24,624 bases of DNA from a virus. This document shows, piece by piece, positions 7,077 through 10,775 of the stretch (the stretch's first letter is position 1; each line of letters begins with the position of its first letter). A model generated the notes under the pieces. It made no database searches and had not been told where the DNA came from. It saw only the letters and a list, made by a program, of their open reading frames with translations. The DNA lies in the IMG/VR virus record IMGVR_UViG_3300029319_000486, positions 1 to 24,624 of that record. The stretch is one strand, 5' to 3'. Both the position numbers and the translations under genes were made by a program.

Positions 7077-7278
7077 AAAATACCTACCAAAAAGACAATA
7101 CACTTTTAGTGTTTCAGCTACACTTGAATATAATGTTGAAGCTACAAGTGAAGAAGAAGCACATAGAAAATTAATTAAACAATATGGAGCCGAAATAAGC
7201 CATGATGATGTGATTGTTACAAGAGAAGAAATAGAATTAGCAGATTGTATAAATGAGATTGATTTAGATGATAACTAA
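7060..7278 (+). CDS. Small uncharacterised protein
   Basis: 72 residues from a GTG at 7060; an AGG seven bases upstream favours this over the ATG at 7066. The core YTFSVSATLEYNVEATSEEEAHRKL has the strand-then-helix pattern of small phage proteins in which an EAxSxEEA segment follows a beta strand. The C-terminus is acidic. Overlaps both neighbours, which fits coupled translation. Confidence 0.68.
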   Translation: MSMSIKKYLPKRQYTFSVSATLEYNVEATSEEEAHRKLIKQYGAEISHDDVIVTREEIELADCINEIDLDDN

Positions 7279-7609
7279 AAAAGAATTAAAAGAAATAAAA
7301 AAAGTAGCTTTAGCTTACAGACAAGCACAAGTATTTACATCTTGGGATTGTTATGATCCAGATCCAGAAAGATGGGCATTGCATATTAAATCTGTTTTTT
7401 TACCAATAGCTTTAGGTGGTGGTAGAAAAGAACATACATTTTTTTATATGTATAGAGGTCAAAGACATGAGTTTCCAAGACCTACAATAAATGGTTATCC
7501 TAGTTTTGACAAAGTGCATTGTTGGAACAAAGAGAAAGAACAAAAGTTAATAGAGATTTTAACAGCTATGGAAAGTGAGGATAAAAAAGTATTAGATAAA
7601 TTTCAATAG
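7268..7609 (+). CDS. Uncharacterised protein
   Basis: 113 residues, overlapping the end of the previous gene by 11 nt. Contains an aromatic-rich central part (TSWDCYDPDPERWALHIK, then HTFFYMYRGQRHEFPRP) between helical ends. No family recognised and no catalytic motif evident. Last protein gene before the gene-free RNA-like region. Confidence 0.65.
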   Translation: MITKKELKEIKKVALAYRQAQVFTSWDCYDPDPERWALHIKSVFLPIALGGGRKEHTFFYMYRGQRHEFPRPTINGYPSFDKVHCWNKEKEQKLIEILTAMESEDKKVLDKFQ

Positions 7610-7619
7610 TTTATATGCT

Positions 7620-7914
7620 TGGTTGCCGACAATGAAAAGTCTATGTAGCGAAACCACATGGGAATTTCCACATGGGATACTACACAAGGACAATACAGGC
7701 TAACGGCTATAAAAATATACCTGTCTCAATGAATTAACATTGTGAGTATAAAATATGCCAAGTATATAATTTATATACTGTGAAATCAGTATGTAAAAAA
7801 GTATTACAAGAGATAGTGAAAGCAGTCTGCAAAAAAACAGGTGCTATTGAGTAATACAAATGGCTTGGGTGGTGCCAAAGATCATGAACCCACAAACTAC
7901 CCACTTGTCAACCA
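7620..7914 (+). ncRNA. Candidate structured noncoding RNA, about 295 nt
   Basis: The 380-bp stretch 7610-7989 has no plausible gene but many mutually compatible helices. A closing helix pairs 7620-7624 with 7910-7914 and 7628-7632 with 7905-7909 around a GCC bulge. Inside it lie 7644-7648/7680-7684 (with an inner CATGG hairpin), 7695-7699/7720-7724, 7727-7731/7738-7742, 7761-7768/7772-7779, and 7801-7807/7851-7857 with inner pairs 7813-7816/7844-7847. Hairpin TGGC/GCCA (7861-7864/7874-7877) has a loop GGGTGGT (7867-7873) complementary to ACTACCC (7896-7902), an H-type pseudoknot. It lies between same-strand genes, so plus orientation is assumed. Family not recognised; no tRNA-like end, so tmRNA is unlikely. 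Confidence 0.55.
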
Positions 7915-7989: not shown

Positions 7990-8409
7990 ATGATAAATTA
8001 TAATTTTAGTACGATTAGATTTTTTAAAGAAAACGCTGATAAAAATACACCTGCATTTTCTAGAAATAATCTTGAATTAGATGATTTAGAATCTATTGTT
8101 GGTAAAGATGTATCTGTGTATTGGTGTAAAACAGGTATGAAAAGAAACACTAAAAATGAAGAAATAGAGGAATTTTGGGATATGGTTGAGGATGAATTAA
8201 TTGGAAGACCACCAAGACTTTCTGTTACAGATTTTAAAACACCTACTCAAGTTTCTGTTTACGGAAAGTTAGAACAATTTCCAAATGACAAAGAACATTT
8301 TAGAGTTTTAGTTGATGATCTAAATTATTCATATTTTAATTTTGAGGATGTTCACACTATAATTCACAGAGTAAATTATCCTCATTGTGTTTGTTTAAAT
8401 TGGAAATAA
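7990..8409 (+). CDS. Uncharacterised early protein
   Basis: 139 residues with a strong AACAAGGAG ribosome site. Begins MINYNFSTIRFFKENADK and is rich in aromatic residues and acidic patches, with DVSVYWCKTGMKRNTKNEEIEEFW in the middle and YFNFEDVHTI near the end. No family recognised. Single gene between operator copy 4 and a terminator, the same arrangement as the gene at 4444. Confidence 0.7.
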   Translation: MINYNFSTIRFFKENADKNTPAFSRNNLELDDLESIVGKDVSVYWCKTGMKRNTKNEEIEEFWDMVEDELIGRPPRLSVTDFKTPTQVSVYGKLEQFPNDKEHFRVLVDDLNYSYFNFEDVHTIIHRVNYPHCVCLNWK

Positions 8410-10303: not shown

Positions 10304-10332
10304 ACATATCATTTTGTGTCTAATGATTATAT

Positions 10333-10362
10333 TGTTAGTTACTCGTTGTTGGGTTTCTAACA
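10333..10362 (+). promoter_or_regulatory. Leader hairpin 1
   Basis: TGTTAG (10333-10338) pairs with CTAACA (10357-10362) around an 18-base loop, at or just after the predicted start of the recombination operon mRNA. Confidence 0.35.
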
Positions 10363-10376
10363 TTGTTGTAATGACA

Positions 10377-10434
10377 GGTGTAGGTTAGGGTATTGTTTTT
10401 AAAAATTACCTTTCTGACGATCTTAGCCTACACC
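10377..10434 (+). promoter_or_regulatory. Leader hairpin 2 with 13-bp stem
   Basis: Arms 10377-10389 and 10422-10434 pair over 13 positions, 11 Watson-Crick and two G-U, with a 32-base loop that itself contains T5A5. It lies about 8 bases before the ribosome site of the gene at 10452. The G-U changes keep the RNA stem but break DNA symmetry, which favours an RNA element over a DNA operator. No T-run follows, so it is not a simple terminator. Confidence 0.5.
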
Positions 10435-10451
10435 AACTAACAAGGAATAGT

Positions 10452-10775
10452 ATGAAAAATATAGTAAATGAAACAGAAAAAGTTCACGATGAAACTTTGG
10501 AATTAATGTTAAAAGCTCAAGAACTCATGAACAAAAAAATGATGCACTACGAACAAATAAAAGCACACATAGAGAACGATGGGGATAAAATTGTTAATAG
10601 CGAAGAAAATTTTAATAATCATTTAAATTTAATTCACAAACTAATATTAGGTTATGAAGCACAAAAAAATCTAATAGATAGTTTGTTTAAAGTTTATACT
10701 GAAAGATTAGTTAATGAAAGATTAATCAAAGCTGAATTAGAAAAATTAAAGGAAGAACATGGTACAATTCAATAA
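10452..10775 (+). CDS. Coiled-coil protein of recombination operon
   Basis: 107 residues, almost entirely charged helix with heptad-like spacing of Leu/Ile (ELMLKAQELMNKK, LNLIHKLILGYEAQKNLIDSLF, ERLIKAELEKLKEEHG), so predicted coiled coil. No family recognised. It has a CAAGGA ribosome site, overlaps the exonuclease start by 17 nt and opens the operon, so a partner or regulator role for the recombinase is possible but unproven. Confidence 0.65.
   Translation: MKNIVNETEKVHDETLELMLKAQELMNKKMMHYEQIKAHIENDGDKIVNSEENFNNHLNLIHKLILGYEAQKNLIDSLFKVYTERLVNERLIKAELEKLKEEHGTIQ

Follow-up and report, generated by a model that had tools for sequence, protein, structure and literature searches.

The noncoding stretch at positions 7612–7902 (plus strand) of the IMG/VR virus contig IMGVR_UViG_3300029319_000486 almost certainly encodes a member of a genuine structured RNA family. 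The sequence analysed, of 24,624 bases, is referred to below as the window. The stretch forms a modular array of module A, a trimmed hairpin, module C and module B, with coordinates taken from the module search. Related loci share a conserved, pseudoknotted plus strand core and exchangeable parts, and most of them carry a promoter-like sequence in register with the core. The preferred explanation, to which we assign a probability of about 0.45, is that the stretch encodes an autonomous, host-facing modular phage RNA that evolves by module exchange.

The genes of the window include those for a terminase large subunit, a portal, an Erf-like annealing protein, an HNH endonuclease and an endolysin. 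The array lies in a gap of 380 bp between the stop codon of the upstream gene (7609) and the next start (7990). As stated in the original prediction, this gap holds no plausible gene: no open reading frame of at least 40 aa was found on the plus strand, and the only one on the minus strand is of 56 aa (7734–7904). The array begins at about 7612, directly after the upstream stop codon, and not at 7620. The plus strand of the predicted stretch folds better than shuffled sequences (z = −2.86, 2/200), but the opposite strand folds equally well (z = −3.11), so that energy alone proves neither an RNA nor its strand; module B by itself is no better than shuffles (z = −0.39). Folding energy was thus rejected as proof of an RNA, and the comparison of relatives was used as the main evidence.

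A second strongly folded leader was detected in the window at 10331–10446 (plus strand), directly before the gene at 10452. Its closing helix pairs TTGTTAGTT with AACTAACAA, and a hairpin pairs GGTGTAGG with CCTACACC; the leader gave z = −3.93 (0/200 shuffles, plus strand only). A possible TTGACA/TAATGA promoter would place its start at the closing helix; no relatives of this leader were found among the fetched loci. Elements of the sequence ATTTCAAAT, previously described as operator copies, recur before early genes of the window (at about 4381, 5176, 6714 and 7944) and are also present 3′ of the RNA array in contig L040 and after the L003 homologue of the window gene 7268–7609.

A 24-base piece of the stretch matched one other contig (L005), which is 97.7% identical to the window over 130 bases, and L003 proved to contain a diverged copy. 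The gapped pattern obtained from these copies, ACAGG N(10-34) CCTGTC N CAATGAATT, matched 43 viral contigs, and module A was defined from the pattern matches, aligned by eye and by MAFFT. Further copies of A were reached through module B, which a separate pattern located in 52 viral contigs. Pattern and covariance searches together placed A in about 50 viral contigs plus one cultured phage. With 43 and 52 matches for two strict patterns, the family is common in viral contigs, contrary to the rarity originally supposed. The cultured phage is Pelagibacter phage HTVC115P, a phage of SAR11, which is among the most abundant bacteria of the ocean; its copy, reached only with a consensus A query, lies in an unannotated gap before gp08, and its presence makes the RNA testable in SAR11 infection. 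A BLAST search of the whole stretch against cultured phages gave only chance matches of 27 bases, and no relatives were obtained through the 139-aa gene at 7990. Five pattern matches in bacterial and archaeal contigs (one genome per species) lacked the rest of the A core and were taken as chance. The A copy of L101 derives from a deletion, with the junction apparently at an AATGAA repeat, and was left out of the analysis.

Module A (7612–7768, plus strand) is the most conserved part of the array, a second pseudoknotted domain that the original prediction had left unresolved. The covariance model matched it at 7610–7773 with 140.6 bits (E = 1.5e-27), the window sequence being part of the model. 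In pair counts made on 22 sequences, 92.4% of cells were paired and 18 of 33 pairs were double-changed, compared with 10.5 in shuffles, and none of 500 shuffles reached any of the measures; over the counts made, the values were 91–92% of cells and 17–18 pairs. When the partners were slid, pairing fell to 35–42%. Wobble cells comprised 20 G-U and 7 A-C, which indicates that the plus strand is the RNA.

The closing helix P1 of module A is formed by 7612–7622 with 7758–7768, both on the plus strand. Its pairs are double-changed in relatives at 8–9 of 11 positions, variants including TATATGCTTGG/CCAAGTATATA, AAGACTGG/CCAGTCTT and TTAGTTTGG/CCAAACTAA. The pseudoknot joins GCCG at 7625–7628 to CGGC at 7704–7707, in the loop of P3; all four pairs are double-changed, with 94–99% of cells paired, and the alignment contains the variants GCCG/CGGC, TCTG/CAGA, AAGAC/GTCTT and TTGAC/GTCAA. 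The variable subdomain P2 (7639–7691) is closed by a stem (7639–7641/7689–7691) in which 3/3 pairs covary. Its inserts are of very different lengths between phages and its tip is exchanged; one insert is common to different A backgrounds, e.g., those of L020 and L006. Hairpin P3 with the inner hairpin P5 (7695–7724; P3 7695–7699/7720–7724, P5 7708–7710/7715–7717) is followed by the conserved hairpin P4 (7725–7746; 7725–7731/7738–7746). P3 is invariant and P4 has 2/7 pairs double-changed once the A copies seeded by module B are included; the search pattern itself prescribed P3 and a portion of P4, and their invariance among its matches therefore means little. P5 is weakly supported, one of its three pairs covarying. 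The A copy of L005 (13224–13500, minus strand) is without the usual closing helix; the domain is enclosed by another possible helix, GTCGCTT/AAGCGAC, which runs together with a module designated F.

Downstream of A, the trimmed hairpin (7775–7792, plus strand) represents cassette W of L032 and L028 in reduced form, with a 6-bp stem and flanks identical to those of L032 and a replaced interior. Module C (7801–7857, plus strand) consists of an outer stem (7801–7807/7851–7857), an inner stem (7813–7817/7843–7847) and an invariant A-rich loop; the module was found in 16 sequences, and three of the five inner pairs are double-changed (ten sequences). Module B (7861–7902, plus strand) contains a hairpin (7861–7864/7874–7877) and a pseudoknot (7867–7873/7896–7902). 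The latter is exactly the H-type pseudoknot predicted at the outset, pairing GGGUGGU with ACUACCC in seven pairs including one G-U, and it is compensated in L003 (GGATAGT/ACTATCC) and in L109 and L112 (GAGTAGT/ACTACTT). The covariation check that had been proposed was carried out, and compensatory changes were found in A, in the inner stem of C and in the pseudoknot of B. The long-range closing stem TGGTTG/CAACCA (7620–7625/7909–7914), in contrast, was not upheld: its 3′ half was not seen after B in relatives, and its 5′ half overlaps the covarying P1 and touches the pseudoknot strand at 7625–7628. A structured, pseudoknotted RNA was thus correctly foreseen, but the single domain with long-range closure gives way to a string of independently exchanged modules.

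Twenty-two module signatures were picked by eye and searched, with few errors allowed, in all fetched viral sequences; the list is neither complete nor unbiased, since it was chosen after viewing these sequences, and among these modules structure was tested for A, B and C only. The same search on reversed sequences gave zero matches, and the module matches are therefore not due to chance. At least 22 recurring modules were found, clustered, nearly always on one strand and in many orders, such as A-B-X-Y, A-H-B-X, A-H-E-B, A-W-D-E and A-R-N-M, the longer A-Z-K-B-Y-X-J and Z-K-B-D-B-S-Y, and the shorter A-U-Q, A-V, F-G-B and A-C-B. In L040, whose array is preceded by a gene sharing 59% identity with the window gene 7268–7609, A is kept and followed by cassettes R-N-M, at the place occupied by C-B in the window. 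In other phages C substitutes for A, with a similar promoter ahead of it and a gene of the same family behind it, and the W cassette of L032 is shrunk in the window to the hairpin of six pairs. Module Y has an extra hairpin in its tip in L100, absent from L020, so that exchange also takes place inside modules. In L039 (2180–2500), a long noncoding stretch after A contains repeated TTTACTAGAC boxes between different hairpins.

Exactly one copy of A was present in 24/24 whole records, of up to 75 kb and several of them fragments. A promoter TTGACW/TATANN, with a spacing of 16–17 bases, precedes A in 34 of the 42 loci with upstream sequence (hand count), and its predicted start coincides with the first pair of P1 or falls within a few bases of it; many of these 34 loci are near-identical, and at least eight distinct upstream sequences show the promoter. 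No such sigma-70-like promoter was found before A in the window, L040 or HTVC115P. A ribosome site and a gene follow within 60 bases after 65 of 108 arrays, and a terminator-like hairpin stands between the array and the next gene in eight, related contigs included. Noncoding arrays of six to seven modules, ended by a strong terminator (GTCAAGGGGG..CCCCCTTGAC-T8 in L020) and followed by a primase-like gene, were observed in L020 (1–720) and L101 (480–1420, minus strand) and are candidate free-standing RNAs of 600–900 nt. In L003 (14554–15374) and L066, the strand opposite A carries X/B modules within a divergent intergenic region; one phage can therefore carry RNA modules on both arms.

The genes upstream and downstream of A differ between phages. 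In one large group the array adjoins a gene named by eye as TerS-like, in a second group genes named by eye as primase-like, and in L003 the neighbour is a gene at the position of a replication gene. A conserved protein partner was discarded, as the commonest neighbours (TerS-like, VRR-NUC-like and primase-like, by eye) change between groups, and so was a riboswitch, as the genes after A form no functionally consistent set.

Comparison with Rfam 15 at the gathering score, which covers tmRNA, RNase P, 6S, group I introns, GOLLD, ROOL, HEARO and riboswitches among its families, gave no match in the window or in thirteen module-bearing loci. What permissive Rfam searches returned was either weak and located outside the arrays or due to chance, and at E ≤ 10 the window yielded nothing but a chance match to IsrR of 11.6 bits. 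ARAGORN found no tRNA and no tmRNA in the window, and tmRNA was ruled out in the absence there of a tRNA-like domain with a tag; the earlier failure to match tmRNA, RNase P, 6S or a group I intron agrees with these results. Retron or DGR RNAs were excluded by the lack of RVT_1 matches in 30 whole records, some of them fragments, and TnpB/IscB guide RNAs by the lack of PF07282 matches in 30 records, the controls being matched in both cases.

According to the preferred explanation of an autonomous RNA, the phage would make the RNA early, from its own sigma-70-type promoter with the start at the closing helix of A; in the window, transcription would instead run on into it from the early gene upstream. 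Folding of the transcript would give a compact core with a pseudoknot (A) and, after it, modules that fold independently and often contain pseudoknots too (C and B in this case). Core A is kept and hairpin tips and whole modules are swapped between phages, in this reading by recombination. The modules may act as interchangeable contact surfaces for host molecules, such as RNA polymerase, a ribonuclease, the ribosome or a defence protein, and the rapid module turnover suggests that host-driven selection keeps changing the module set. From the sequence comparisons we infer transcription of the locus, activity of the RNA and not of the DNA, and an action of this RNA that reaches past its own transcript; module exchange would reflect contact with changing host targets. 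More tentatively, the family may represent a combinatorial RNA locus, with one array per genome, put together out of dozens of small, often pseudoknotted modules that the phages share, and shuffled anew as the small protein genes of an anti-defence island are; RNA, and not protein, would here be the fast-evolving side of the phage-host conflict.

An autonomous RNA is favoured because A is found in a single copy, terminators follow some arrays and the downstream genes are unrelated; one A copy per record is also unlike a general message stabiliser. Counting against it are the 65 of 108 arrays that run into a ribosome site and a gene, as a leader would, and the window copy, which is without the usual promoter. 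The main competing reading, which we consider a serious possibility, if short of even odds, is a cis-acting leader: a folded RNA, placed 5′-terminally or intergenically, would affect the transcript that carries it. It would either alter RNA polymerase so that the enzyme resists termination, in the manner of the put RNAs of phage HK022, or protect the message against ribonuclease attack. The position just after a promoter, characteristic of put-type elements, was found in 34 of the 42 loci, with the start at the first pairs of P1, and not for the window copy. A leader accounts for this geometry and for the ribosome sites close to most arrays just as well as an autonomous RNA. The replacement of A by C before the same gene family fits it too, as do the modules on both arms of the divergent leader region in L003, arranged like nut/put sites. 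Single copies, unrelated downstream genes and terminators that end some arrays speak against it, together with a complexity far above that of put RNAs and a conservation of the single-stranded bases of A beyond what a merely stable stem would need.

A specific form of the autonomous RNA, in which each module mimics or binds a component of host defence or a toxin as a decoy or antitoxin, is unlikely. Type III antitoxin pseudoknots bind ToxN, and the different small pseudoknots with exchangeable loops and fast module turnover would suit such a role; however, there are no tandem identical repeats, and the ToxN-family search matched none of the 30 records, nor any control genome. Still less probable is an element acting as DNA (a recombination hot spot, or a packaging or replication site) with hairpins that are merely RNA-like. 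Exchange breakpoints do fall at module edges, and a large group has the locus next to the TerS-like gene, a further group next to primase-like genes, but these neighbours are not constant, promoters point into A, and the excess of G-U over A-C cells (20 vs. 7) implies that the strand matters. The least probable origin is a degenerate or minimal ribozyme, e.g., a relic of a group I intron. The helices of A follow the P3-P7-P8 order of such introns, with what the alignment suggests are a P3-like pseudoknot, a P7-like stem and a small P8-like hairpin, a likeness of layout only; Rfam gave no match, there is no splice context, and in many A copies the segment that would correspond to the conserved P4-P6 part is reduced to a hairpin of 3 bp (e.g., CTC-TTAAAT-GAG). 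A group I intron was accordingly rejected.

Module exchange amounts to a natural set of swap experiments and, if the modules bind host factors, they would provide a ready-made collection of small folded RNAs that selection has supplied with targets. A search of the open-access literature found no described marine phage RNA of this kind. The arrays resemble the put/nut sites of HK022 and lambda-like phages in being structured RNA after an early promoter and on both arms of a divergent region. The put RNAs of HK022 measure about 70 nt and have two hairpins, and we know of no module exchange of such kind among them, whereas the arrays exchange modules and any role of theirs in antitermination is putative. 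With ToxI they share short H-type pseudoknots in arrays. ToxI arrays, however, are identical repeats beside a toxin gene, while the modules described here differ from one another and had no toxin match, in a search in which the controls were also silent.

The candidate structured RNAs of Candidatus Pelagibacter ubique are similarly marine, linked to SAR11 and found by comparative analysis, but they are host elements, several of them upstream of defined genes, and modules A, B and C are set apart from them by their descriptions (PMC2704228). The marine phages Melnitz and Mosig carry a glutamine riboswitch and a tmRNA (PMC9004378), likewise RNA-based regulation in phages of streamlined marine bacteria; these RNAs belong to known Rfam families, whereas the module arrays match none and precede varied genes.

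GOLLD and ROOL, large ornate phage RNAs with pseudoknots and an unexplained function (PMC12286853), are the closest in kind. Like them, the arrays are phage-encoded, structured and pseudoknotted, with no protein partner known, and GOLLD has a conserved and a variable part, as the arrays do. The arrays differ in matching neither RNA in Rfam, in exchanging modules in many orders and in the lack of tRNA genes in the window. GOLLD and ROOL are also marked by homo-oligomeric assembly, for which the arrays are at most candidates. To our knowledge, the exchange of whole RNA modules between phages is known from neither GOLLD nor ROOL. Absent from the Rfam catalogue, the RNA array appears to belong beside these known ornate phage RNAs.
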